A stretch of 64,000 nt of DNA. It comes from Chalara sp. BL73. Taxonomy: Eukaryota; Ascomycota; Leotiomycetes; Helotiales. Under the pieces are notes generated by a model that was given only the letters and a program-made list of their open reading frames with translations, was not told where the DNA came from and did not search any database. Location: contig CAKJVC010000016.1 of NCBI GenBank assembly GCA_918026815.1, positions 62,001 through 126,000 on the forward strand. Direction: 5' to 3'. This document shows, one piece after another, positions 1-58,072 of the stretch (its first letter is position 1; every line of letters begins with the position of its first letter). The position numbers were made by a program, and so were the translations under genes.

Positions 1-866
1 GTTGCTGCCAGAAAGATGTGGCATACAAGGAAGGTCTCATAGAAGGCGTGTCTGATCGGAGAAGGAGAGTGGAGGAATATGATGATTAGAGCGACGGTTC
101 CTACCGTGCCCAAGCCAATGAAAGGATCTTCTTTGACCATCTTTCCAATGCCACTCCAGCCAGTGGCTGCGAATTTCACATAACCCCACGCGAGCGTATG
201 CACGACTGCTTCCCATACCACGATTCGGCCCATTGATCTATGGATGAGGTTATACGTGTCGAAGCTGATCTGGAGCCACGAAATCAACGGGTTGTTTCGG
301 CCGGCGAGGATAATCAGAGGAATCATGTTGATGAGAGATAGGTAACCAGATCTTCCTCGTAGCTCTGCTACAACCTCATATTTGTTCCTCTTGCGATAAT
401 CCATGATAACGCAAGCTATAATGTTGCTCAGTATGTACAAGCTGAGCATGATTGAATGCAATCTGGAGGGTAGAGTCCCGATGTTGACAACACCAGAGAG
501 TTGGATCTCTCGGTTATGACGCTTGTTCCAGAGAGGAGCATAGATAATGTGCTTCTTGAATTTCCACCAGCTTGTCGTGTTCTTAGACCAATACTTCTGG
601 TTCGCGGCAGGTAAAGACATTGCTGCAAGATGTCTATAGTGTTTTGATGCTCTTTCGGCAAATCTAGTGATGAAGAGAGCTGCGGTCAGAACACCCAGGC
701 TTCCCCACAAGATAGTCATGAACAATTCATTTCGTCCTTGGTTGACCCCATTGAGTGCGGTTGCGAATGGCGCTATCGTCGAAGCGGCGTCAGCTGCTGA
801 GGCTTTAGATGAGCTTGGAATGGTCTCCATGCGCCGAAGCAGCACGTTGAATGTAGGAGTTGGCAT
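1..866 (-). CDS. Ferric-chelate reductase (FRE family), 3' part cut off by window edge
   Basis: The frame is open from an ATG at 866 to the window edge, giving about 288 residues of the N-terminal half. Several hydrophobic segments are visible, and the ferric reductase transmembrane core starts with the heme-ligand pair in NLIHRSMGRIVVWEAVVHTL, two histidines separated by 13 residues. The RHAFYETFLVCH segment next to it is the usual start of the second heme helix. The family moves electrons from cytosolic NADPH through two hemes to reduce extracellular Fe(III)/Cu(II) chelates at the plasma membrane. The FAD/NAD-binding half should lie beyond base 1. The frame stays open upstream of 866 without another ATG nearby, so an extra 5' exon carrying a signal peptide is possible. 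Family call is firm; the start is not. Confidence 0.85.
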   Translation of the reverse strand, partial: MPTPTFNVLLRRMETIPSSSKASAADAASTIAPFATALNGVNQGRNELFMTILWGSLGVLTAALFITRFAERASKHYRHLAAMSLPAANQKYWSKNTTSWWKFKKHIIYAPLWNKRHNREIQLSGVVNIGTLPSRLHSIMLSLYILSNIIACVIMDYRKRNKYEVVAELRGRSGYLSLINMIPLIILAGRNNPLISWLQISFDTYNLIHRSMGRIVVWEAVVHTLAWGYVKFAATGWSGIGKMVKEDPFIGLGTVGTVALIIIFLHSPSPIRHAFYETFLVCHIFLAA

Positions 867-3612
867 CGCCGTGGTAGATGTGTAGGTATAGCAGTAGATA
901 GTTTGAAAGAATGTAGTTGATGCCCGAGATGACAGTTCTAAAAACGCGTAAGAATGTACGCCTTAAAAACTAAACAGAATATTCACGGGATGTTTTGGTG
1001 TTAATTTTATGGGGATGGCGAAACTTACGTTTCGAGGACAATAGCTTTATTTCAATAATCTCGATTCTATTGTTCGGTTTGGCAGAACAACAAGTTGATA
1101 ATGTGACCCAAGCGCATCGTCGGCGAAATCTTTGTGTTTGTTGTAAGCGAATGTTTGTTTGATAGCTCGTCAAAGACTGAAATGAATGGAATTGTCTCCA
1201 GGACGTTTGTTGTCTGGTTGTTGTAGTCAATAGGGAGTGTGTGAGGTTGTGACTGGTATTTTCCTAGCAAGGGAGAAATGCAGTATTGAGATCCTGGGCG
1301 AGGAATTTGACTCTAACTAATACTGCTGGACGCTGACTCCGCTGGCTATGATGAAGTGAATGAATAATACCACTTCACGCCTATCTCTCTATTCACTCAA
1401 ATAACCTCGTGAAGGGTGAAAAATCTACGGTTTGATGTCCGGGGGGGCAGAAAGAGGGCGGGGACGAATAATTCTTGACGAATCTTAGATGTATCAAAGC
1501 AATCACAATACTGGCTGACCAGAACCAGTATAAGAATAGTAACGAATGTGAAAGGCTCAACTTTCAGGACAGAGAAGCATAAGCGTAAAATGATGATTGA
1601 CAAGAAGACAGTGAAATGGGATGCCGATCGTGGAGTATTATGTGCCCAGCACGCCAGCAACCACCAACGCAGCCAGGTCCCGACCTCTCCCCAATGGTCG
1701 GATCATGGCTTGCCCCCTGACCAGCGTACCTCTGGACGAACCACTGTGAGCCAATCCGTCGGTTTGTTGTTCATGTACAAAGTGGGTGCTGAGGCCAAAA
1801 ATTGGTGAGGGGCAGGAAAGATATCAGGGGCCGTGGCTGATGATAGGCTTTCAATCACGCACACTTGGTGGCGTTGACGGGCGGTGGATCTCACAAATGC
1901 TGGGCAACAGCTGTTTCCAGCGATATCACTGGGTGCATGGTGGTTCGTTGTTTCGAAACGCTGACAATCACAGGGGTCTCGCTGGGATTTACAGGTCAGA
2001 TTATGTTCGGCCGATACCGAAAGATTCGAGAGCCTCAAGGGGGGGCAAAGGGGGGAGATCATCCAAGGGGCTCCAATGGTTTTGTCAGGTGAAATATGAA
2101 CTCCAGGGTCAAGATGGATGGATGGATGCAGGTGATACAGGATTCTCGACCCATTCAGCTGATATTTTCTCTCCCGTCATACGAGGTTTGCAAGAGTTTG
2201 TTTCTGTTGGCAAACGGGCGATTCAAGCAACAAAGGGACCCCCGCGTGTTTCGAACATAGTAACTGGAGGATGACAGCCAAGGCTTCGGACGCATGAAGG
2301 GCAAAATAGAACCAACACCCCAATTTTATCCAATCTGACAACGTATCTATTCCAAACCTCTAGGATTATGACTTCAATATATTTTCCCGTGCGAAAGCCT
2401 TCGAGATCGAACCGAGAATCTGCTCATGGCCTGTCCGTTATCTGGCCGGTTCATATAGTTCCGTCCGAGCGCTGGACTTGTGGTCCTCCAAAAGGTTACA
2501 ACGAATACCCTCATGCTTAGAAGATGTGAGCAAGATCCGTCAGGTAGCTCGCTGACGGCGGTAAGCAGGCACATAGCCTCGGGGAATTCGTATAGCAGTA
2601 CCAGATGGATACGTAGTGCTTCTCCATCTCAGTCTGGTAAAATCTGGCTGCAATCCTACTTGACCAGGTAACAGTTGGCAACAGACATCCCTAGTGTGAA
2701 GTAGGAGAAATAAATTCAGTCCTTAAGAATATGGGATCATTAAACCCATGCTCCTCAACGCCATGGTCCTATTGTGGATATGATTGTGACCTCGCTGTAA
2801 AGTATTCTTCGCAAAATCCTTCCCCACACGTCATATCCCATCCGTTGATTCTCAGCAACAGAGTGCACTTGACCTAATGGCAAATTAACCCAAAGTATTA
2901 ATCAGGCATCCAATTCGCGTTTTCGAAATATTTGACAGATGAAAATGATGTGACACAGCGTAACCTGATGATCCTGCGAATCGAGCCTTGTGGTGTGGCC
3001 ATACCAGTGACATCAGTACAACAGTTTGGAACCGTGCACAAAAGAAAGGGAAACATTATGCAAGGGAGATGGATATCAACCCCTAACATCCCGCTCAATT
3101 CCCAAGTAAGACGAGAAAGCGGATGAATGGTAGAGGAGTGTGTTATTGGTAACAAGGAGATTGGATAGCGCTGCTCCACCCCGTCCTTTCGTCTTTGGGG
3201 AGCTACAATTAGCAAGATTGAGCATAAATTAACCTAGGTGATTTAAAAAAAAATCATATTCCTATAGATAAAGTGACGATGGTGTTGCAATCATGGACAA
3301 ATGTTTGCACATTATGTTAAGCCTGCTTGCAGATGGATCCCATGTAGGCAGCAACAATAAGCTATGCAAAACAGTGAATACGGTTCAATTTTTCAAGATC
3401 CTTAAGTCATAGCTAAGTGCAATTAACGAGAAACATAACAATCAAATTGGTGTTCGTACAAATAGCTGAAATTCGAAGCATATCAAAGACAAGTGTCGAC
3501 GGTCCGCGAGTTGTTCCGAAGGCTTGGCTCCAGCATCCAAGAACATCAAAATTCAAGCTTCCATCAACCTCTCAAACAAAACCTGCAATTGTCGCCTCAC
3601 AACTGCCCAAAC
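867..3612. other. Long intergenic region, no supported gene
   Basis: About 2.7 kb between the ferric reductase start and MIC19. Short open frames exist on both strands but none shows family resemblance, a plausible spliced extension or compositional bias toward coding. A (GGAT)3-like run occurs near 2118. It presumably holds the reductase promoter. I saw no convincing match to the iron-regulator GATA consensus ATCWGATAA; the nearest is GCCAGATAA read on the minus strand near 2443. Confidence 0.5.
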
Positions 3613-4256
3613 ATGGGATCTAATACCTCCAAACCTGCGGCACCGCCCGCGACTCAGACATGGACTAGGTATGATCCTCTATGATCCCATGATATCACCA
3701 CAAAACTTACCATGAGAAACAGCGACCAACCCGTCCGGTTCTCACAAGAGCTGATTGATTCCCTGCAAGCCAGCACCGAGGTACGCATTTCTAACAATGG
3801 GATGTAAGGCATTATGCTGATGCTTAACAGAGCGATTCCACCCGCGCCAAAACCCTGGAACTGCACATCCAATCGCGCGTTCAAGCCGAGCTCGCGGCCC
3901 TCCAAGCGAAAGCGTCCAAAGACTTCGAAGAGCTGTCCGCCAAAATCTCTGCTCTGGAATCCGAATCCCCCTCGAAGTCAAAAGATCAGAGCGCGGGCGA
4001 CAAGCTGCGCGACTTGGGAAGGGAGAGCGTGCAGAGCGAGCTAGAAGAGCTGAAGAAGAAGTTGAAGGAGAGGAGGGTGGTGAAGGAGGAGGATGAGGGC
4101 GTTGCGAAGGCGAAGAGCGAGGTGGTGAGGTGCTTGCGACTTAATGATAGACGGCCGTTGGATTGCTGGAGGGAAGTCGAGGCGTTTAAGGAGGAGGTTA
4201 GGAGGTTGGAGGTTAGGAGGTTGGAGGGCCAATGGGTAGAAGGTGTTATGAGGTGA
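3613..4256 (+). CDS. MIC19: MICOS complex subunit MIC19
   Basis: Exons 3613-3668, 3723-3780 and 3831-4256 give 179 residues. The protein begins MGSNTSKP, a good N-myristoylation signal, followed by a long charged coiled coil (about residues 40-120). Near the C-terminus a CHCH-like segment reads CLRLNDRRPLDCW, a CX10C pair followed by EVEAFKEEVRRLE. This is the layout of fungal MIC19/AIM13, a peripheral inner-membrane protein of the mitochondrial contact site and cristae organising system. The CX10C pair is expected to be oxidised in the intermembrane space. Introns are 54 and 50 nt with regular GT/AG ends and a GCTGA-type branch point in the second. The gene converges with TYW3, whose stop is 226 bp away. 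The C-terminus carries a small tandem repeat of VRRLE. Confidence 0.88.
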
Positions 4257-4481
4257 GCCTCGAAGGGATATTCCTACTAGCAGAAGTTGGGAAGTTCTGG
4301 CCTTGTACACATATGTAATAGACCGCAATCAATGCATGAGAGAATGAAATAGCAATCAGAAGACTCATTCCGGCTTTCAAGTGATCTCCATCACAAAGAC
4401 ACATGAGGCTCGAAGCTTCCCCATGGCATTAGCACCAAACCGCCTCCGAAAGTCTCAGCCGGAGATCATGATGCGCGAAAA

Positions 4482-5514
4482 TCATGTATTTTTTTCTAGC
4501 GATTCCAAGTCTGGGCTTTCTTCCGGTTCAGATGGCCCACCTTGTTTGGCCTCTTGTGCGAATTGGCTTTTTCGTAACCCTTCAGCCCTTTTCCTCTCCC
4601 TTCTGACAACTGGATCTTCCCATGCTCCACCATCTCCTCCTTTCCGCTTCTCTTTCCCAGCATCCATACCATTGTCGACCTTCTTCAGAAGCTCCCTAAA
4701 CCTCTCTATCCTTTTCGTGTTCTCCTTGAATCGTTCATTTGAGATTTCAAGCAAGGTCCTCAGGTCCTCTTCATGCACCGTACACATCGCCTCCTCATCT
4801 TGCCACTCCCCAACCAGACTCTCCAATGAGAGTCCCATGGATCTAACACCCACGATAGGCGTAGCTTGTTCCTTCACGGATCCAATCAGATTCAAAGCGC
4901 CAGACTCACGAAACCCGGCTTGAATTGCACAGGACAATAAAGTTTGTGCATGAGTCGGTGATGCTGTTAAGATATGAAGTATCTACTCTTGTGAGATCGA
5001 GACGACTCATGAATGGGAGAGAAACGGAACATACCATAGGCTCGAACTTAAAATGCACAAACCTCCTCGCCCCAACATTATTACCTATACTCTTTCTACC
5101 TTTCCTTTCCGTTCTCCTCACTAACCCCAACTTCTCCACCAAGTCACGTCCTTCCTCTCCGTCCTGCGCGAAGGGGATCGGATCATGGCTAACAAAAAGC
5201 CATCTTCCGCCACCACCTTTCCCTCCCACTCCTGCTTTAGTTCTTTCTCCATCCTCCACTTCTCCCTCACCCCCTTTCCCTTCTCCTACATCTAGACTCC
5301 TCTTCCCTTCCAAAAATACGCTAATCCGCCCAGCACAGCTACTAGTAGTCACCCACCCCTCCCTTCCGTTGATATCATCGATCAACTCCCGAATCCCCTC
5401 ATCCACAGAACCCTTTGGCGATAGATCGTCATACTCTTCTGTTGGGACGGCCAGAGAGGATATTATCTTTGCTTTCTTGGAGAGGAAGGATTGCGGAAGT
5501 GACTTTGAAGTCAT
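4482..5514 (-). CDS. TYW3: tRNA wybutosine-synthesising protein 3 (TYW3)
   Basis: Exons 5035-5514 and 4482-4982 (52-nt intron with GTATGT..TAG) give 326 residues. TYW3 is the SAM-dependent methyltransferase that N4-methylates the yW precursor at position 37 of tRNA-Phe. Diagnostic motifs are TTSSCAGRISVF (about residue 57), RWLFVSHDP (about 103), VHFKFEPM at the end of exon 1 joined to ILHILTASP at the start of exon 2, and AGFRESG. A low-complexity Gly/Glu-rich insert separates the first two motifs. After the core, residues from about 225 form a charged helical tail. The acceptor was chosen at the TAG before ATACTT because only that junction restores the conserved FEPMILHIL run; the later CAG would break the frame. 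It lies tail to tail with MIC19. Confidence 0.9.
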
Positions 5515-6378
5515 GGTTGTCTAATGGGAAGAGAAGTCAAATATGTGATTGGACGACAGGAGAAATGTGGGGTGAGAAAGAATTTTTTCTTGGCGGGAGG
5601 TTAAGCAGACTACTAGTACTTCTTATCCTATCACAGCTCAATGGGAAAATCCAAGGTCTTGTCTACCTCTGATTGTGTAATGCTCTTCTGCTTTGGCGTA
5701 CTTCAGTGTTTCATATCAGTTCTTGAGCTTATTTTCATCTGATTTGTCAGTATGCCCTTGCGAAAGAGAAGGGCCCATGCTTCTCTTTCGATGCATGTCT
5801 TCCCCAGTGAATCTTCTCCAAACCAGCAATAGGGACCCTGAAATTGTATGAAGGAGGTTCTCACTATTTGTATCAACTAAGTCGAGTATATTATGTTACT
5901 TTAGCAAAGTGCGGCCTCATTCGCTGTTCACAAATAGAGTAACGCAGAGTATTATCAATAAATTTTCATTCCGTTGGATGAATCTAGACTAGCATCGAGA
6001 TTCACCACATAAGTATCTCAACGATGACCCATTAGCAGTGTCTTATATACCATCAATGCTCCAAAACTACCCATGGCAGTGCTCCGTCAAATGTGTAGTT
6101 GCAGTTGACGACCCGTCCAGATATTCCGGGCCATACGTAAAAGCATCAATAAACGCACCAAGGAAACTCATCAAAAAAAAAGGAAGTATAAGACAAGGGA
6201 TTAGGGGCGTTCCTCCTAAGGATGGAAAAGAATCCACGAAGCATATATCTCAATTGCAAAACATCAGGATGAGGTGGGACCATGTGGTTCCGAGACTTAA
6301 CCTCTGCTGAGACTGCGATAGACAAATGCAAGAAAAGGAAAATTGGGGGACAGAACACAGATGCCGAGCAATCGGCAT
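5515..6378. other. Intergenic region, no supported gene
   Basis: About 860 bp, AT-rich, holding the TYW3 upstream region and the 3' region of the RRM gene. No coding signal seen. Confidence 0.5.
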
Positions 6379-9300
6379 TCAGTATCTACCTTCAATTGCA
6401 GGTGTCAAGGCTCGTCGAAGAAGAAGCTCGATGGCAGCCCACTCCTTTTGCGCAACTTGAGCAAGAGTCATATGAGCAAGCTCCTTGGAATCATGTCCGA
6501 TGTACTTTCGAATATCGCCGAAGAGTTTTATTTCCTTGCTGACATCGCCAGAGGCGGCTTGCTCCGCAAGCGAAAGTGTTTTCTTCTCAGTCTCAGTTGC
6601 CTCACGAATGAGGGTGACATACCACTACAAGCATGTTAGTTGAAGCCAGGCTGTTATCAACGTTGAAGCTTACCAAGACAAGGTCAGACGGCGTGTTAGG
6701 CTTAGCACCGATGGTCCAGAGGTCCTTCCAGTAAGAGGCATATGGTGCGATACCAATCTCTTGAGCGAAGCTCTCATCAATACTGCACGTACAGACAATA
6801 TTATCCTTCATAGTTGGGGTGAAACCACAGCACTTTAGAGCAGCACGCCAAACACGCTTCAAAAGCATGTTGTTGAGGTTAAGGGGGTCGGTGTTGTTGT
6901 TGATACGCTCCATTAGGAGGTTCAACAAAGCCATAGTAGCGTTGTATAACAGGTTACGGTCTTCGATGGTGATGTTATCGACCATATACCATGGATACTT
7001 AGGGAGATTAGCATGTAAGACACATTGAGCACAGTTTAAGACTTGCCTTTTGCAATGTGCTGATCAAACACTCGAACGGACGTTGAGGACATTCCTTGGA
7101 GAACGGCGACTAGACTGTCAGCTACCGTGTTCTGCATCCGTGTTAGGTAGCACTCACGCGTTGTGGAGCCTCAACATGCTTAACCAGCATAACAAGTTCC
7201 TCGCGGCTTACAAAACCAACAAACCCAGAGTTGTACTTGTCATTGAAGTCACGGGGAATGATCTTTGGTCGGCCACCCTTCCAAACGACATTCTTAGCCT
7301 TGGGAAACAGATCGGCCATCAAATTCTCTTGTGTAGAAAGCTCCACATCCACATGGCGCTGGCCAAGACGACCACCGCGGCCGTTAATGCGGTTGTTCTC
7401 AAAGCGATTGACAGCAGCAACTGCCTCGCTGAAGTTGACGAACTCGATATAGCAGTCCAGAGTCTTGCTGGTCACGCGCTCCATGATGATATGAACAGCC
7501 TCGCCGTCTTGCTCGGCGACGAGTCTAGCATTTCGACCGAGGAAGGCAAGGATCTCCTGGCGATTGACTGAGTATGGGATCTACTTAATGTTAGCTCAGT
7601 CTACAATCGTTGGAGCCGGTTTGCCCACATTCTTAATCTTAATGACGCCCCAGTCATCCGCCTTAGCCAAACGGCAGAACTCACTGAATGGAAGGTTGCG
7701 ACCGTCAAGGGCTTCAGCAGCGCTAGGCTTGACAGTCGCTCCTCGAGTGAGAAGTGCAAGCTCCTTACTCATACCCCCACGGGTCATAATCGTTGCCTTG
7801 AATGGGGTGTTATATGGAGTTGGGTTGAACGTGGTGACAGCAGAACTACCGAAGGGGTCGCTTTGTTCCGTCAAAGACTTTTTGATAGCTGAGCTGTTGC
7901 CCGTGTACAATTGTATCATCCGAGGGGGGGATCCCTAGTTTATTATCAATTTTCCTGAACAAGTCGTCTGTTCTTGATACTGTATTTTCTAAAATTTGGA
8001 GAATACTTACAACGCGTTTGATCGTCTCAGGTGTGTTGATACCGAGCTGGTTGGGGCCTGAGAGACCGGTCGGAGTGTTTTCAAGCCAGGAGGTGATATT
8101 CTGCTTCCGAGCAGGGTCAGTGATGGCCGATGTCAAAGAGGCAGCTCGAGTTGCTTGGAGCATCGGAGTTGTGAGACTGCGCTTTTCAGAGTTAAAGTTG
8201 ACAGAAAGACCGCGTTTGTGATTTTTAGGAGTCATGACCTTGAATGAAGTTAGTATACAAAAAGTCTCGATTAATACAGCAGGTGACGACGCCTCGTGGC
8301 GAGGCGTGGTTGGCACTTTGGTGAATATAGCAGGCTTTTTTTACTTACTTGACTGGCCTTAATCGGAGTTTCGCAACTGCTAGAACTTTCCAAAGACTGA
8401 GCATTAGAAGATTGATGTCGTGCCGTAGCAGCACCTCTCTCAGGGCTCGCAGACATTTCAGGGAAAGGGTTAGAAGCAGGAAGAATTGGACCTCCAAGCT
8501 TGCCGTCCTTCAACTTCATTCTATTAAGGGCATTGTTAAGTATACTCAGAGCGTCGGAACCTGCAGGTCCAAATGGGTCATTCTTCTTCGAGTTCGCCTT
8601 CTTACGCTTCTTTCCACGACCAAGATTTGAACCAGAACTAACGCTTTGAACATCTGAAATGCCACCAGCAGAGTGCGCTCCACGGACGTCACCATCTTGG
8701 ACAGCAGTTGTGGCCTGGTTATTGGTGTATGGAAATGAGTTGCTGAAGTTATTTCCATGAAGACTGCCCCATTGGTTGCTGATAGCAGCATTTCCAGCTC
8801 CAGCATTATAGGGCAAGGCCTGGTGGCTCATCACAGGGCTGATAGTCGTCGTATATGTCATAGTGGGAGAACCTTGCCCGACGGAAAATGGCCGCATGGT
8901 ATTAGCACCACCATATTGACCGTAATCGTTTGTGCCCGAAATCCCAAAATTGCCATTCTGAACACCGAGACCAACTCCACCGTAGTTGCTTCCATTGTCA
9001 TAAGCAGCCTGTGAAGGGTATTGCTGTGCTTGGGTGGTATATGGCTGCTGATCTGCATACTGCTGTTGTCCATATTGAGGACCAATAGCTGGACCGCCTG
9101 GAACACCGAAGTTGGTAGACAGGCCGCCTTGAAATCCTAGCTGATAGTTCTGTGTGCTACCATTTGGGACCCATAAACCGTTATTCTGAAGTATACCCAT
9201 GCTAGACTGATGATAGGGATTGGCTGAGCCTCCAGTATTATAGCTACCAAAAGCAGGTTGGGTGCCTCTAATTTGCCCTTGATATTCATTCTGCGCGTTG

Positions 9301-41019: not shown

Positions 41020-42940
41020 CTAGCGGATGATGAAAGTCTTTTTTTTAACAACACCATTCTTGTACATATCGCCGGTAAGCTCACCATCCATGATGCCAGA
41101 AACATATGCTGCGCATACCATACTGTAGGAAACACCCCTAGGCCGCAGTATAATGGGAAATAATTCTCCAAACAAAATGGTAACGCTGTCATTCTTACGG
41201 ACTCTTTCCATGGCAACACCACAAAACCCCATAGAGGTAATAAAAAAATACCGGCCCGAGAGCCTACGGCTTATTACATGTGCGATGGAGGAAGCTGTCT
41301 CTTGTAGTTGGGGAGAGGATTCAGCCCCCCCTGAGAGATCATCATAATGTTCTCTAAAAATTACCATATCCTCGTCAGATCTCCCTGTAACTGCCTGAAT
41401 TATACCTTCTGACTTTTTGAGCTTCTGGAAGCAGGGATTAATGCCCTTCGGCAAAATCTTATCAACTCCTTGTTGCGCAAGACGCTCTAGTTCAGGTAAC
41501 TGGAGTATCAATAGATCTTTGTTGCCTTTCAGTTCGACGGCTATGTCGATAGTATCAAATGGGCTCCCTGCTATCGATAAAGCTCTGTTATCACCTTTGA
41601 ACGACACATCCCTCTGCCCGTGGACAAGAAGAGTTTTACTACCTAACCCCAGACCCGGGTTCGACGGGCTCATTGTTTCCAGTGCAGCGTAGTCGGGGAC
41701 CCAGGAAGGAAGCGCTTTATGAAGCATGCCTCCGCTCTTGGAGGCAGAAAATACAGAGTAGAAGATTTGAGGAGAACGTTCTAGAAGATACTTGGTGACC
41801 TCGAGGTAAACGAGCTGTGTTGGTTTCTGGTAATCTGGCCTTATAGCTTCACGCTCTTCCTTACTCGCTAAACCAAGACAGCCATAAACTTTGTCATGAG
41901 GGTCCGTAGCTTGGAAGTCTTGGGTATACAACAGGAGACTACCTAGATCTATAGCAGCTTCAGTGGAATTCAGGGGGTCCATTCGACATCGGTACTCTTG
42001 TCGCAAAGAGAACAGCCACAATGATTGAACAACGCGTCTTCTTCTATGTTGATCATCTGATTCATATATCTTGCCCAAATCCCCCGCCTGACACCCACTC
42101 ATGAAAATTTCCCAAGGCAAGCAACTAGAGCCGCACATCATGATAGGGTCCGATTTAGCCAGAACTACCTCTTGAACGATCCACAAGCGACCCCACCAAT
42201 CTCGATCGATTAAAGAATCGTAAATGAGATCTCTTAATCTTGACAAGCCTTCCTCGGTCCTGGCCAATTGTTGACCCGCTGCTAACTGCTTGAGTCTCTT
42301 CATCGCAATGTCACTACTACCTCGGGCTTCCCCAAGCCATACCAGAACCTGTTTTGCAGCCGAGTATACACGGTTCATCAAGAAAACCTGATGGCTCCGT
42401 TCGTCTAGGTCCGCCTGGTTGATGCAAACCGTGTCGATCCAAAGGATGCGGCAAGAATCAATGTATCGTAGATGTCGAAGAGCAGCATGCAAATTGTGGG
42501 TAACCATCAAACGTAATCCATTGACAAAGATAGGCTCCACTTGTGTCCGATTACCCCATGTATATGATAATGCCTCAAAATCTGGGCAGTCGTCTAGTTG
42601 ATATGTTCCAAGAGTACAATGAAGTTCGTCCACTCCTTGGCCAGGCTGAAGACTCAAGATCCGTATCTCGTTTGTTTGTCGTTCCAATTCATAATAGGGA
42701 CTAACATCTTGCTTGCCTCGATGATTTTGCTTGCCTGCGGCTTGCACCAATTAGTCGCATTCACCTCTCATTCCCATTATATATGGGAGAGCAATCAATC
42801 TACACACCTGTCTTTCGTCGGGAGGCTGAACGGAGACGATAGGACCGAGGCTTCAAGTTGACCAGACTTGAGCGCTGCCGCTGCCTCTTTCGTGGTCGTT
42901 CCCCTTGAAGGTTATCAGGACGATGTTTGATCGAAGTCAT
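41020..42940 (-). CDS. Heterokaryon-incompatibility (HET) domain protein
   Basis: Exons 42808-42940 and 41020-42740 (67-nt intron) give 617 residues. A basic N-terminus rich in Arg precedes the HET domain (about residues 99-255). Signatures: FEALSYTWG, VNGLRLMVTHNLHAALRHLR, ILWIDTVCINQADLDERSHQV and VYSAAKQVLVWLGEA. After it comes the usual DPHDKVYGCLGLA stretch. HET-domain proteins trigger cell death on nonself recognition; the domain is TIR-related in fold. No NACHT or WD repeats are attached, so it is of the stand-alone class with unknown partner. An upstream in-frame ATG at 42991 could add 17 residues. Confidence 0.88.
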
Positions 42941-48799: not shown

Positions 48800-49964
48800 T
48801 CAGAGCTTTGGCTTTGCGGGAATGCGCTCCTCTTTCAATCTGACTACGCCCTGTATCTGTAGTTAGTGCGACACGTGTGAAATTATGCAAGGCTAGCCTA
48901 CCTCTTGAAAGCAAGTAGCTATCAAAGTTCCATCCTTTGTAAAAATATGCTGGGTGACAACACCCCTGCCATCACCACTCCAAGGACTCGACATCTCTGC
49001 GAACATCCACTCATCTGCTCTAAACTTTCTGGGTTCGTGGAAGTAGATGCTATGATCCAAACTGACCATCATGCCAACCTCGGGCCTTTTCAAAGCGTTC
49101 TCCAAATCATCCCCGTATCCTTCTTGTGTTTTTAATAACTTCATATATTTTTCGCGTAGCGCAATCTCGTCATCCCCAGTCTCAATGGCTTTTGATTTGG
49201 CATTTGTTGGTGCCCCAAATCGCCACAGGTCGTGAATGCGTGACACCGTACCAATAAAGTAAGAGTCGGACATGTATGCGAGCGCAGAGAGGTGGGCTTC
49301 GTGCCCGCCCTCCGGACTGATCCTCCCTCGGGCTCTGATCCATTGTCTCGTCTTTTTGGCATGTGGCGACTTACTGTCCTTATTCAACATTTCAACCCGC
49401 TGGCTCACGAACGGACTGCCACCATTAAACCTCTTCTCCAACGGGTCTTGTTCCCTGTCCTCTGCTGGCACTACTATGTTTGTCGGTAATGGCACAGCGT
49501 GGCTGACAGTACTTGATCCTCCAGAGTTCTCCCGTACGAAGGACATCGTGGTTGTAAATATGCACTTCCCACGCTGGCGTGCCTGCACTGTGCGTGTAGC
49601 ATATGATTTTCCTTCTCGGACATGCTCGACATAATACATAACAGGTATTTCGGAGTCGCCTGCGAGAACGAAGTAGCAATGCATGCTATGAACTGTGAAG
49701 TTTGAGGGTACGGTACGTTGTGCTGCGGAAAGACATTGAGCTATGACAGCACCGCCATAAATACCACGAGCTCCAGGCGGGTGCCAGAGCGGGCGTGTAT
49801 TCGTGAAGATATCCTAATTCTATATTAGATGATTGCTTCAGAACGAGCAACACGTCGCATACCGGAGCGATTGCACTTAATTCTGTGAGCTCTAGGACAT
49901 TTTCTATCGCCGATTTTGAGGGATCAATGGGAGGCGGCCGAACAAGTGTGGGATGGTCAGCCAT
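48800..49964 (-). CDS. Acyl-CoA thioesterase II (TesB-like, double hot-dog)
   Basis: Exons 49863-49964, 48902-49813 and 48800-48850 give 354 residues. The start MADHPTLVRPPPIDPSKSAIENVLEL is broken here as RPPPIDPSKSAIENVLELT. The first hot-dog repeat carries IYGGAVIAQCLSAAQRTVP, HSMHCYFVLAG and YATRTVQARQRG. The second carries LAYMSDSYFIGTV, VSLDHSIYFHEPRKFRADEWM and GRGVVTQHIFTKDG. The enzyme hydrolyses acyl-CoA to free acid and CoA, usually in peroxisomes. The C-terminus ends ..AKPKL; PKL is a weak, non-canonical PTS1, so peroxisomal location is plausible but not certain. Codon 1 was set at the only ATG before the conserved RPPPIDPSKS. Confidence 0.9.
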
Positions 49965-51455: not shown

Positions 51456-52331
51456 TCAATTAGCGACTACAAGAAACTCTTGCAAACCTTCAGAACTCTC
51501 TAGTCCTTGACTCAAATTCCCGAGTTTCCAAGAAATTTCATCGTCGTCGTCGTCATCGTCATCGTCATCTTCATCATCTTCTTCTTGCTGTTGATGATTG
51601 CCAAAGAACCTACCCCCCCTAACCTTCTCTACCGTCGGTCCCAAGCCTAATGCCTCTCCACCCCACCTACTCTTACAAACCTTCATATACTCTACACCCC
51701 AGATCTCTACTCCGACACTCCGAGACTCACTCCCGGTTCCGTTTCCTACCATCCTGCCAGCCCCAACTCCAACCCCAAGATCAATGGGCAACGCTCCCGC
51801 GATAAGGCCCAGAGGCACACTTGCGTCGGCTCCGAGCTCTACAGTCCTCTCACTGTCCCGTCTAATGGCTGCATCCGTCGCAATCACAAGCCCAACAATA
51901 AAATATGCCTGTGGCTTCCTCAAGCTACGCGCCACCCTGTTCGTCATCAATTGCACCAGTTCATCCTTTACTCCTGGTTGCTCTAGAGTTCTCGCAAAAA
52001 CAGCGGATGGGTTCACAAGCCTTAGTTTTTGGAGCTTGGGCGAGATGATAGTGTAAGATTCATTTGAACCACGAGATGAAGAGATAGAGAACACCGGCTG
52101 CAGGTCGACGTTAAATGAGATTGAGGAGGAGATGCTGAAGGAAAATATCCCCGGTGCTTCAGTCGTGGTGAGCGTTGAGTCTGGTGTTATGACATCGGCG
52201 AGCAAAGATGAGTCGCCAGGGACGGTTGCAGAGCTTAATGGGGAGAGGGGTGTACTAGTTATCAGGCCCAGGAGATTTTTTGAGGCTGGGATACGGTGTG
52301 GCAGTAGTAAGAAAGTTTTTACCTCTGACAT
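51456..52331 (-). CDS. Candidate fungal gasdermin-like protein (RCD-1/HET-Q1 type)
   Basis: A single exon of 291 residues without signal peptide or transmembrane segment. The first about 230 residues alternate polar and hydrophobic residues in beta-like fashion, with an amphipathic helical stretch around 110-145 (SAVFARTLEQPGVKDELVQL, then AYFIVGLVIATDAAI). A Gly-rich segment (LGVGVGAGRMVGNGTGS) follows. An extreme acidic tract (about residues 250-265) links to a 26-residue tail ending in LQEFLVVAN. Length and the short C-terminal tail match fungal gasdermins, which are freed from autoinhibition by proteolysis of a tail of about 40 residues and then form plasma-membrane pores that kill the cell. 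The divergent neighbour encodes a CHAT protease of NLR type. The family call is an inference from resemblance and context; an unrelated lineage-specific protein remains possible. Confidence 0.55.
   Translation of the reverse strand: MSEVKTFLLLPHRIPASKNLLGLITSTPLSPLSSATVPGDSSLLADVITPDSTLTTTEAPGIFSFSISSSISFNVDLQPVFSISSSRGSNESYTIISPKLQKLRLVNPSAVFARTLEQPGVKDELVQLMTNRVARSLRKPQAYFIVGLVIATDAAIRRDSERTVELGADASVPLGLIAGALPIDLGVGVGAGRMVGNGTGSESRSVGVEIWGVEYMKVCKSRWGGEALGLGPTVEKVRGGRFFGNHQQQEEDDEDDDDDDDDDDEISWKLGNLSQGLESSEGLQEFLVVAN
51538..51600. repeat. Trinucleotide microsatellite coding for a poly-Asp/Glu/Gln tract
   Basis: GTC/ATC and TTC units (GAC/GAT/GAA on the coding minus strand) repeat in the gene and encode an uninterrupted acidic run of about 15 residues preceded by three glutamines. 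Such tracts change length easily between strains. Confidence 0.85.
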
Positions 52332-52850
52332 TGTGAAGCTTTGTGTTGGTGTTGTTGAGCGGAAACTTTGGAATATTGCTGTTTTACTGTCACGTTTACA
52401 GCTTGGCGCTCGTGCATTGTTTCATTGATTGTCCCGAAATCAGCCACATCTTTGTGAACTATTGCTTTTTTTCAGCTCTACATCCATGCGATCGCGTCCT
52501 GCTTTTGGTGGCGTCCAATGAAAATCAGCTTCACCTAGCACCCGATCTTCTTTTGGGCAAATCTAGGCGTTGTCATGTACTATTCGTAACACACAACTAC
52601 CTGTGGTTCCAGCTCCGTGCAACCAAATTTTGTTAAATTTTTTTTTTTTGGATATTGGGCTGGAATAAATACACGGTATAAAGCGACTTGGGTAGGTTCC
52701 AGGTTAAACCTAATCTTTGAAGTTCACCTTCTGGGACAGCTCGAAATCCACTCTCTTTCTCTCAATTGAATTAGTGTTCTGAGTATTTCCTTTTTTTCTT
52801 TTTTTTTTCTCTTTTTTTTCGTAATTCTTGTTTGAGTTGAGTATTGGCAA
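52332..52850. promoter_or_regulatory. Shared divergent promoter of the gasdermin-like and CHAT-NLR genes
   Basis: 519 bp between divergent start codons. The half next to the CHAT gene has strong T/CT-rich runs at about 52634-52650 and 52787-52820, typical of fungal core promoters just upstream of transcription starts. Sharing one promoter would keep the two products co-expressed; this is an inference. Confidence 0.5.
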
Positions 52851-55800
52851 ATGTCTATCCTCTGTCTCCACATCCGGGAGCTGGAGCCTGCGCCAGGCGA
52901 GACCGAAGGATTTGAAATCGAATTATCTAGCGGAGATATAACAGATATTATTTCGTTCATAAATCCTTTTGACGATGTAACTGAAAAAGAACTCACCTGG
53001 TTCCTTGAAGGATATCCGAAGTCTCCGTTTTCCGTTTCCCGAGCAGAAAAAATCGCCAGAAGACTAGACAGCTATGCAAGCCAAATCGCGCAGCAGCTGG
53101 TAGACAGTAAAGTTGGTCAACAACTATGCAAAGCAGATAGCGCGACGAACGTTTTAGAGTTATGTATAGAGCCTTTCGTGGATGGTAGCGTGAAGGCGTT
53201 GAGCAGTTTTCACCAGGTCCACTGGGAGGCACTTGAAAACCGCGATATTTGGGGGATCCCCGGGCTTCCCTTTAGTGCAATTCAGGTCGTGCGACAAGTT
53301 CGTAGCAGCGCATGTCGGGTAATATGTCCAGCTCCCATAGCAGCATTGCATAACGGCAAGATTCGTCTCCTGTTCGTTTGTGCAAGACAATCGCTGGATG
53401 AGTCGGTCGATATCTCTTCCCGACTGATCATGCAACCTGTATTCGAAGCCATCGAGAAATGTAAAGCCAACGGAAAGGTCGAAAGTGCTGAAGTATTGCG
53501 TCCAGCTACGTGGGAGTCGTTACAGCTTAAATTAAGAAGCAAACCTAGAGGGTGGTTCTCCGAAGTACATTTTGATTGCCATGGAGAGGTGATAGATGGA
53601 ACAGCTTCTCTTCTTCTAGATTCTTCCTCGAAAAAAGGAAATGAGAAAGTAGCAGCCTCTTTGATAGCCGGTGCTTTGATTGACTCGGGTGTCTCGTTGG
53701 CCAACTTGAATGCCTGCTCAACCGCTATGGCAGCAGCAAGGAATCTCGATTCGAATTTAGCCATCACGTTCGCGAAGGCAGGGGTTCCAATCACGATTGC
53801 AATGTCATATGATGTCCTTGATTCTGCTTCTTGTAATTTTGAGAAAGAATTCTATCGTTCTTGGTTGTCGGTTTCTGGTGACCAGCCCGTCAAGAAGTCT
53901 GTTCTGCATCGATTGAAGGGGCGATTTCGGTCCGTCGAGCAGATTCCATACGAGTCTTTGTCTGATTCAGTATGTAGAGCTGCCAGAGAAGGTCGTGCAG
54001 CACTTAGAAACGAAGGAGATAGGCTTGGTATGGGCGGGTGGCAAGTTCGTGTACGAGACGACATTGTCCCGGTCGTCTACATGTCGAAGTTCGAAGAGTA
54101 TGACATTTCGGAAATTTTGCCGAGTGCCAAGGTTGAACCAAGAAGCGCAGAGCCACTGGAAGACAATCGGTGGGCGAATGATCTTTTGGAGGCGATGAAA
54201 GAGGCTTTCAAAAGTCCTTCACCTGACTCCTCGTCCACGTCTACGGCGAAGATCCTAAGACCAGATTCGAAGCAGCCTTCCAAGGACCAATTATTCTATT
54301 CATCACTTTTGCCGAAAGGCTTCCGTTTCGGATCAATCGATCCCCCAATTGAGGGTAGAGATTCTGCTATCAGTCAACTTGAACAACTGATGGAGCAACC
54401 AAACAAAAATTTCTGCTTTATACAAGAAAGAGCTGGGAGTGGCAAAAGTTTGTTTGTGCGGCATATCTGTGACTGGTGGAGATCGACGGGTTTTATCCAA
54501 GATATATTCTACATTGACTGTAGGAAAGTTGCCATGCCAGAAGGCGCCCATGAAGGCTTGCCTTGCACTGCAGCGAAGCCGGACTTCATCGGTCAAGCTC
54601 TACTCTTCGTTTTCAAAGCTTTATGGCCAAACAAATTATCCCAGCCTTGGTACCGTAGTAAAAAGTCATTGACTGCGGAGCAGAAAGTCGAGTTGAAAGA
54701 CGAATTGCGTGCGGGTCGCTACCTCATTGTGTTTGATAACGCAGACTTCCCTTTGTGCATGAAGGAAAATAAGATTACTCCTACCGTGGTTATGACTGCA
54801 GGATCTACACTCATGTGTAGAGATTCATTGATTGCATCCTCTATGGCTATGTATGCACTTGGCGATTTCATTGGCCAGATCTCCAAAGGGAAGAGCAAGA
54901 TTATGGTAACAAGCCGCTATCGAACTTGGTTTACAGATACATTCCCAGACCAAGAGCCACTCTGGTTTCATCTTCCACGCCTCTCATTATCAACGGCCTT
55001 GAAAATTGGGGAACGAAAATTGCATTTAATGAAAGCTGACAAAAGGAGGTACGAATATTCTGGGGCAAAAGCAGATCTCTCTGCTCTCATAGACCTTCTT
55101 CAATTCAATCCACTGGCCATAGAGGTTTGCTACGGAGCAATGGTAAAAGAAGCCCTATCTCCGCCAGATGCTTATCGGAAAACGTGCATTTCAGGATTCG
55201 TAATGGATGAGGAAGATTCTTCACTAGCTTTTAGTGGCGGTGGCAGATTCATTTCGGAACTGCAGAAGTTAGCGAGTTTGGACTGGAATGGAGGTGCTGA
55301 CGAGAGCAGACGCCCTTTCTCAATGTTTTGGGTGTCGGGCTGTCTTGGGTATTTACCTGCAACAAATGAATGTAGCTTCTGGTATCAGTTGATCCTTTTA
55401 CTCTACCAAAAGTGGAACGGCACTTTGACACCATTTGAACTGGCTCTCCAGATGGACGAGAGCGAGATATGCAGGATGATGAGCGCACAATTGACCACAC
55501 AAAATCAATATGATGAACTGGTAGAAGCTCTCAATCTTAGAAAGCATGTCAGCGACCTTTGTAAAACTATGGAAGAGGCTGGAGTTATCCAAGTCGAGAG
55601 GCCAGATCAGGAGCCAAGCTTTGCTAATGTTACGGAAGCTCTAGAGAGTTCCGACTCAAATCAGTGTTATCAGATACACCCATTGTTTACACTCATTTCG
55701 CGCATTTCAAATTGGGGCTATGATGACGAGGAGCATTATAACAATATGTGCTCCTTGAGGCGGTGCGTGTCTGCAGTATATAACTTATCAAGATGCACAG

Positions 55801-58072
55801 CTTTGTTCCTGAAAAAATTTATCGGCGGGCTTAGAGCATCAGAGATGTGGGAATCCGGTTTGCTACAAGTACCAACATCTGAAAAGCGATCCGAGGTTAT
55901 GGGGGTTCTACAAAGAACATTTAAAGATATTCCGTCGCTAGTTGATGCACTCTCCTGGATGTCAACAGATCAGCCCATGGTGGAAGCGAATGCTAAATTC
56001 TGGCAGTTAATGCCACAACTTTTCGGCGGAGCCATCCATCTAGTTGCTGCTGTCTTTGAAATAAGGAAAGAGGCATTGTATCCGGCTAGTGATGCTCTGA
56101 ATGGTTTATATCAAAAGTGCCTGCCGTTCACACATGAAACTCCGACGCTTCTTGACGCTCCTAGCTTCGTATACATAGTAGTGTTTCAGGCCGCCGCCTT
56201 GGCCCGTATGTCATCTCATCGAAAGGGCTTGCCCGATCCTCTCATTTATCTCAGTGAGGCAAGAGATTTGATCGAGAGGCACCGTGATCGGCTCCGAGAA
56301 GGAGTCAAGCTCGAAACAGCTATCGAGAGTATTTTGAGGAATATGTATGCTTTTGAAGCGAACTTGCATTTCCTGAGAGGTGATCGAGAGAAGTCGCATG
56401 CCATGCAACTGGCTGCTCTCTCTGCACCGCCATCAACACACCTCCCCAAGGACGTCCGCCGGTCATTTCTCATCCCAACCCTGTTTCAGTGGCTTACCCA
56501 ATGCAAAGTGCGCAATAACAGCTTCCCGACGGTTCATCAACTCACCCAGATGAAAAAGTCGATCCTTGATATCCTTATAGAATATGATATGTGGGACGGA
56601 AGCGAGGCCATGACGTTTAATGAAGACGTGCAGTTCCTGCTCCGTAACTCGGTCTACGAGCTCACAAAGTCCGCAACATACCTTCCTGTTCCACCTCGCA
56701 ACAAACAATTCGACTCCAGGTTTCTGCAAGTATATGGCGGAGCGGGCGGCGAAACATTGGTCACGGGCATGGGTACGGTTGAGCTAACAAAAGACATTAG
56801 CGAAGAGACGGAAGCCTCGCTGTTAAAGACATTCCTTATGCAATCTGACGTCGCAGGGAGCAGCGGTCTAGCCTCAGTGCATATGCGAACCGCGCAGATG
56901 CTCATAGGCAGTCGCAAATGGATTGAGGCTTTGCGTCACCTGAAGGCCTACGCATCGTTGCCCATGCCACAAGAAGACCTACAGAGTCCACCTTTGAGAT
57001 CTCAGAATTCTCTTCTCGCCTGTCTATGTTTCTCGAAACTAGAATGCTGGAAAGAGGCACGGCAGCATGCATTCAAGGCAGTTGAAGAAGCCGTAGATGC
57101 CCGCGACGACGGTCAATCGCTTACACAAGCTCTTGGAGCCCTTGCCGGTGTCGAGGCCGGAAGGGTTGGGGCTTACACACTCACTGCAAAATTATTAATT
57201 GTGTTAGCAGCCGCAGCCGTATATGCACCCAATCGACCAGGCCATGATAGTGGAGGACCTTCGGAGTTTCAAAAGAAATACAGGAATGGTTGGCTTTTTA
57301 AATTGATGACGACACTAGGAAACCTCATCCCCAAAAATGGTGGCTCACATCATCCCGTGTTCTTGCCGCTTATGACTGCACAGCGTGCTGAAGAGCGAGA
57401 AGAGAAGAGCGAAGTGTCTGTTCCTGGATTCGAGATTTTTGAAGCTAGTATGGATGCAACGGTACTTATGCTAAGTCTGAGCGTCAATCGGAAAAAGGAT
57501 GAAGCCAGAGGAGAAAGGATGTTCTGGGTGGACAAGAATTTGGAAAACGAGCTTTATGCCGAGGTGGAACAAGTCGCCTTTGGCTGCGAGGAACTAGTTT
57601 TGAGTCATTTTACTGAGTTCGATTGGGTAGGCATGGTAGGCATATCTGCAACCGATTTAGGCTCGATCATTAGTTTATTGCGCAATAGTATCAAGAGTGT
57701 CGTCTCAATATCCAAGGGCCATGTGTTCTGCTCAAAGACGAGGATAAACTGCAATTGGACGCTCTTAAAAATATGCTCAACCTCTCTGATGAACCGCTCT
57801 CATTTGATGTTCCAGAGAACATTATAAAGAAGGCCAAGGAAAGGAGCGCGAGGCGAGGGGCCGACTCAGACTCAGATAGCGACTCAGGAAGCGATAGCCC
57901 GGACACAGACTTTGATAAGCCAGTGAACGGTTACTTAAAGTGGAAGATATTTTGCGATGAATTCACTGATCATTTAGTTGCAAAAGAGTTGCGGAAGGCT
58001 CCTATATCAAAGGAAGTTTGGGGGGAAGTTGAGAAGATGTTTGAAAATATGGAAAGAGACCGGCATAATTGA
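52851..58072 (+). CDS. NLR-like protein: N-terminal CHAT protease, P-loop NTPase, helical repeats
   Basis: Exons 52851-57626 and 57689-58072 give 1719 residues. Residues about 100-420 form a CHAT (caspase-HetF-associated) protease domain: HWEALENRD, VRQVRS, then catalytic His244 in VHFDCHGEV and Cys289 in LNACSTA, followed by ITIAMSYDVLDSAS. The NTPase begins near 500 with Walker A RAGSGKS (527-533), Walker B YLIVFDNAD (Asp629) and a VTSRYRTWF sensor motif (about 685). The remaining 900 residues are helical; from about 1100 on they look like degenerate TPR-type repeats. The C-terminus has a Ser/Asp-rich run and a final helical segment. Exon 2 was placed because the first frame ends out of register; GTAGGC..ATAG restores it. 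By analogy with fungal NLRs, ligand sensing would trigger oligomerisation and activate the CHAT domain, whose likely substrate is the adjacent gasdermin-like protein. Confidence 0.85.

Follow-up and report, generated by a model that had tools for sequence, protein, structure and literature searches.

The animal inflammasome brings together a NOD-like receptor (NLR), caspase-1, and the gasdermin GSDMD. Clave et al. reportedly described in 2022 a two-gene cluster of Podospora anserina composed of a gasdermin and a CHAT protease that carries tetratricopeptide repeats (TPRs). On a wider scale, of ~1,900 fungal gasdermins, ~80% are clustered with protease genes and 19% lie within 10 kb of CHAT genes; the partners include NLRs or NLR-like proteins with a CHAT domain, which number in the dozens, and the term “contracted pyroptotic-like pathways” has been applied to them (PMC10197012). 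NLRs with an N-terminal CHAT domain adjoin gasdermin genes (PMC9815663), and the TPR-bearing CHAT protease of Podospora activates its partner gasdermin, whereas RCD-1 is activated by encounter with an antagonistic allelic variant and not by proteolysis (PMC12881547). The same source describes HET-Q1 and HET-Q2 as idiomorphs of one locus (PMC12881547). Herein, we report a pair of divergent genes in a stretch of 64,000 nucleotides (the window; contig CAKJVC010000016.1, positions 62,001 to 126,000) from Chalara sp. BL73, a member of the Helotiales (Leotiomycetes). One gene encodes a divergent gasdermin and the other a CHAT-NTPase receptor-like protein. We consider it likely, at a probability of roughly 0.8, that these head-to-head genes act together as a cell-death switch, with the triggered receptor cutting the short tail off the gasdermin.

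In principle, the window pair shares its organization with the fungal CHAT-NLR/gasdermin pairs described in two reports (PMC10197012, PMC9815663), including an N-terminal CHAT domain, an NTPase, a long C-terminal region, and an adjoining gasdermin gene. It departs from them in having a divergent NTPase whose NACHT match falls below the cut-off, in lacking recognized repeats, and in carrying a gasdermin from a divergent subfamily. Because the kind of system has already been described, we regard the window locus as a further example of it, distinguished by its divergent gasdermin. The resemblance to the Podospora anserina pair lies in the placement of a gasdermin beside a CHAT gene, and another locus of the same genome, C2 (L019), likewise holds a TPR-CHAT pair. 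However, the CHAT domain of the window receptor is N-terminal and is followed by P-loop NTPase motifs, whereas in the C2 protein the TPRs come first and the CHAT domain last.

HET-Q1/HET-Q2 and the window pair have in common the gasdermin family, a C-terminal piece of ~5 kDa, and a protease partner, but the window protease is of the CHAT class rather than S8; pairs of the S8 type occur elsewhere in this genome, at C77, C133, and C84. RCD-1 of Neurospora crassa differs further, in that its trigger is an allelic partner and a protease is not used. An earlier note, made from the sequence of this stretch, had counted RCD-1 among gasdermins activated by proteolysis, which does not agree with the allelic mechanism given in PMC12881547. 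The note had also likened the locus to an animal inflammasome. The underlying logic is indeed the same (sensor, caspase-like protease, gasdermin), and clusters of CHAT-NLR and gasdermin genes do exist, but the parallel is not new, as it is already drawn in PMC10197012. Unlike the animal system, the window locus has its protease fused to the sensor, uses CHAT instead of a caspase, and has a gasdermin tail of just ~5 kDa.

The gasdermin gene is a single exon encoding 291 amino acids (51456..52331, minus strand), and the first open frame of the receptor gene encodes 1658 amino acids (52851..57827, plus strand). The two start codons point apart and are separated by a shared upstream region of 519 bp (52332..52850), which agrees with the divergent arrangement proposed previously. 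Searches of Pfam, NCBIfam, PADLOC, and PDB with the 291-residue protein as a single sequence gave nothing meaningful. Six homologues (P0001-P0006) were found that are 35-56% identical and keep the core motifs, and the four that cover the N-terminus start at the same methionine. All six lack an NCBI name, though the database searched includes many NCBI fungal proteins. A profile of this family had a sole PDB match at E<=10, which was the Neurospora gasdermin RCD-1-1 (E=4.5e-4); with the seven-sequence version of the profile, the same match gave E=3.2e-3.

Further evidence came from comparisons with other fungal gasdermins. The window-family profile was run against 4,224 open reading frame (ORF) pieces of >=30 amino acids, taken from the window and 15 other stretches of the genome; 14 of these surround CHAT or CHAT-like loci, and the other surrounds the region that best matched a piece of RCD-1. 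Its hits were a 285-residue protein at C2 (E=8e-6) and, with a weaker score, one of 282 residues at C77 (0.017). A joint search with these two proteins returned 165 proteins, 120 of which formed our comparison set. The profile of this set matches both RCD-1 (1.9e-13) and HET-Q1 (1.7e-4) in PDB, and its members are thus fungal gasdermins. Alignment of the window family with these 120 gasdermins by hhalign gave E=4.8e-13 and a probability of 97.9% over profile positions 2-228, and E=5.2e-13 with query and target swapped. When the gasdermin set was used for hmmsearch without the window family, the window ORF was matched at E=1.1e-9, and no decoy made from reversed pieces scored below 1.

The predicted structure of the protein likewise shows a gasdermin N-domain fold. 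The well-predicted parts of the model fall within the same region as the profile alignment, and we assign the pore-forming domain to approximately residues 1-228 (51648..52331, minus strand). The global TM-scores (template modeling scores) of the model are low. The matching structures 6vie_D and 8gtj_A are chains of complexes that were taken as gasdermin by their aligned ranges, and HET-Q1 (9uv9), although present in the sequence library, is not among the listed comparison rows; families outside the listed rows may still match. A first AlphaFold model, built from four sequences, had a mean confidence score (pLDDT) of 39 and was not used. Thus, the comparisons of structure and profile that the earlier note had called for both point to a gasdermin, and we regard the identity of the protein as close to certain. 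It represents a divergent subfamily. The animal family (PF04598) has no match in the Chalara sp. BL73 genome, and no relatives of the window family were found in viral contigs. For comparison, the gasdermin at C2 shares 94% identity with a protein from Bisporella sp. PMI_857, also of the Helotiales (Leotiomycetes). Because the database holds at least this one Bisporella protein and yet no NCBI-named relative of the window gasdermin, a patchy presence of the latter is hinted at.

Beyond the pore-forming domain, the protein continues with a conserved GG(R/K/M)FF motif, an acidic run, and a short tail, as the earlier note had observed in part. The acidic linker occupies approximately residues 250-265 by sequence and charge count (51537..51584, minus strand), and the tail comprises residues 266-291 (51459..51536, minus strand). 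Five of the six homologues retain this tail, with its W (F in P0002), L, L, and F positions, whereas P0004 ends at the acidic linker. In the swapped profile alignment, GGRFFG lies opposite KaAfLsdd, a motif found in other fungal gasdermins, and the putative cleavage region is therefore placed at F242-F243-G244 (51600..51608, minus strand). From this alignment, the cut would fall near F242-G244. The piece from residue 244 onward has a mass of 5.4 kDa, and HET-Q1 is reported to shed ~5 kDa, likely through a cut at F238 (PMC12881547). The short tail presumably holds the protein in an inactive state, and the N-terminal domain would form pores. A late acidic patch is common in gasdermins, being present in 98 of 117 members of >=240 amino acids, and among the five firm gasdermins of the genome only that at C77 is without one.

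The large protein is a CHAT-NTPase receptor-like protein, as judged by its domains and motifs. Its CHAT domain spans residues 200-343 (53448..53879, plus strand; PF12770, E=1.6e-10) and scores 41.4 bits against a curated cut-off of 24, covering profile positions 112-252 of 289. Within it lie His244 in the motif HFDCHG (53580..53582) and Cys289 in the motif NACST (53715..53717), in keeping with the earlier assignment. Their placement is that of CHAT proteases, and as in that family they are taken to be catalytic. They are 45 residues apart, compared with 44 in the well-recognized TPR-CHAT protein at C2, and are in register with the equivalent residues of the paralogues at C169 and C164. PADLOC returned SAVED_CHAT (E=1.2e-5) for the receptor and not for its neighbour.

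The NTPase core is outlined by the P-loop RAGSGKS (residues 527-533; 54429..54449), the Walker B-like motif LIVFDNAD (residues 625-632; 54723..54746), and the sensor motif KIMVTSR (residues 683-689). The Walker A/B motifs noted earlier are therefore present, but the Pfam matches over the P-loop do not reach their curated thresholds (NACHT, E=0.0047, 17.2 bits versus 26.7; ATPase_2, E=0.0066). Since NACHT is under its cut-off and no curated domain covers this region, the label NLR refers to motifs and architecture only. The helical repeats claimed in the earlier note were not recovered: no repeat family in Pfam matches the receptor at E<=10, although diverged repeats could escape such a search, and a PDB search with the receptor gave no match. 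The exact length of 1719 residues proposed for the protein is not confirmed. The 1658-codon frame is open, but reaching 1719 requires an intron that joins it to a probable last exon in a second frame, which encodes an acidic C-terminus (57755..58072, plus strand). When possible GT-AG introns between 39 and 160 nt in length were scanned, 45 kept the frame open across both exons; none stands out, and two of them, each 62 nt long and at different places, yield 1719 residues, while the remaining 43 also preserve the frame.

Other loci of this genome provide a context for the pairing. We find five firm gasdermin genes, at the window (C13), C2, C77, C133, and C84. At C2, the gasdermin and a TPR-CHAT protein (CHAT E=5.3e-37) are arranged head to head, with 491 bp between the first methionines. 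This pair does not constitute an unbiased link, because the search was made beside CHAT genes. In contrast, the gasdermins at C77, C133, and C84 were detected by searching the whole genome, and in each case a protease gene lies no more than 3 kb away. At C77 (L015), the gasdermin and an S8 subtilase (3.5e-13) are placed tail to tail; at C133, an S8 gene lies upstream on the same strand (1.2e-10); and at C84 (L038), an S8 gene (41-1189, minus strand; 2.2e-19) is ~2.4 kb from the gasdermin (3565-4425, plus strand), with a NACHT protein that also carries DUF7791 on the opposite side (4860-7625, minus strand; 7.6e-8). The C84 gasdermin is undetected by Pfam. Thus, the pairing of gasdermin and protease that had been proposed for the window agrees with the profile-profile comparison, the predicted fold, and the similar pairs of the same genome. 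Among 15 CHAT loci (14 when two C9 rows are counted as one, plus C169), with ~5 kb examined on each side, two have a firm gasdermin (C13 and C2), two have a candidate (C164 and C169), and at 11 the profiles used here detected none.

Several further observations concern these loci. At C77, a DUF7580 ORF (PF24476, E=2.6e-24; 2489-3550, plus strand) is directly upstream of the S8 stretch and may be part of the same gene, and an ORF that appears HET-like by eye follows (6286-8709). C80 has split gasdermin pieces (E=5.9e-5 and 0.057) with a TAG inside, and a match at C129 is weak (0.51).

A tree of 77 gasdermins was built from the first 250-260 residues of 68 of the 120 listed proteins, P0001-P0004, and the five from this genome; the fragments P0005 and P0006 and the C169 candidate were kept out. 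The window family forms one clade (100/99), which groups with the TPR-CHAT-linked clade (99/95), away from the three S8-linked gasdermins of the genome. This placement is no more than suggestive, because the stems of both clades are long, two of the S8-linked rows were flagged as long branches, and the partners of only five gasdermins are known here.

The closest paralogues of the receptor are at C169 (tblastn E=1.4e-16) and C164 (3.9e-10). The C169 copy (L016, 3998-5691, minus strand) is head to head with a 305-residue ORF (6569-7483, plus strand). Its kinship with the window receptor rests on tblastn, because its Pfam CHAT match is below the cut-off (E=0.049, 13.5 bits versus 24). The 305-residue ORF has a gasdermin-like start by eye, but its hhalign value (E=0.0071) is not significant relative to the next-best decoy (0.0088); hmmsearch gave 1.5-1.7 with profile A7 and 0.024 with profile A8, and the ORF is absent from the matches listed for the N-terminal profiles. 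In the C164 copy (L017, 4259-5753, minus strand), the frames are split and interrupted by an in-frame TAG; it is followed in order by a P-loop stretch resembling that of the window (E=0.021). Head to head with it are gasdermin-like pieces (6499-7178, plus strand) whose values are below significance (0.016 and 0.17 with profile A7; 0.044 and 0.024 with profile A8), the first piece giving 0.081 or 0.013 with N-terminal profiles. Thus, the upstream ORFs at both loci are treated as candidate gasdermins, and C164 is possibly a decayed copy of a window-type locus.

We propose that the NTPase and C-terminal region of the receptor would sense a cue and oligomerize, upon which the CHAT domain would become active and cleave the acidic-linked tail of the gasdermin near F242-G244. 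The freed N-terminal domain could then oligomerize in the membrane and kill the cell, probably in the service of non-self recognition or defence. A functional pairing of the two proteins is very likely, and cleavage by the CHAT domain is likely.

One competing possibility is that the protein is a real gasdermin that is activated without cleavage by this CHAT protein, for instance by a different protease or, in the manner of RCD-1, by an allelic partner, with the CHAT gene a mere neighbour. RCD-1 is indeed activated by allelic partners rather than proteolysis (PMC12881547), at least 13 CHAT loci besides that of the window occur in the genome (two C9 rows counted once), and S8 proteases adjoin some of its other gasdermins. 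However, the genes are only 519 bp apart and head to head, with the same layout at C2; the gasdermin retains its acidic-linked tail; and its lineage joins the CHAT-linked C2 gasdermin and not those linked to S8. We therefore consider this explanation unlikely. It is still less probable that the pair is decaying or inactive within a birth-and-death family. The CHAT paralogue at C164, with its in-frame TAG, may exemplify such decay, and the lack of an NCBI-named relative is as expected for a patchy accessory gene, but both window genes have long open frames, the catalytic dyad is intact, and the core motifs persist in homologues at 35-56% identity. That the resemblance to gasdermins is compositional chance, as the unproductive single-sequence searches and low TM-scores might suggest, is barely credible in view of the agreement among profile, profile-profile, and fold evidence with reversed and ORF decoys as controls.

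Two other genes of the window may be mentioned. A heterokaryon incompatibility (HET) domain gene (41020-42750, minus strand; PF06985, E=3.6e-32) lies 8.7 kb from the gasdermin, and it is possible that this gene and the gasdermin pair form a small cell-death gene cluster. An acyl-CoA thioesterase gene (48893-49813, minus strand) appears to be an ordinary neighbour.

We can speculate, quite tentatively, that the CHAT-NTPase receptors of this fungus belong to a family of loci, each with a receptor and its gasdermin head to head, that both expands and decays: a lineage of one-protein inflammasomes with private gasdermins, of which C13 is intact, C169 a candidate, and C164 broken. Joint change of receptor, cleavage site, and tail might have carried the gasdermins of such a lineage out of reach of single-sequence searches. 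If so, gasdermin lineage would track protease class, with a private cleavage specificity for each pair, as expected of an arms race in non-self recognition. Because CHAT-linked and S8-linked gasdermins share one genome, partner specificity is directly testable in this organism. The window pair adds a clear case to the pyroptosis-like systems of fungi, one in which the sensor and a caspase-like protease reside in one protein. Moreover, since its gasdermin subfamily is missed by single-sequence searches of Pfam and PDB, current counts of fungal gasdermins may be too low.

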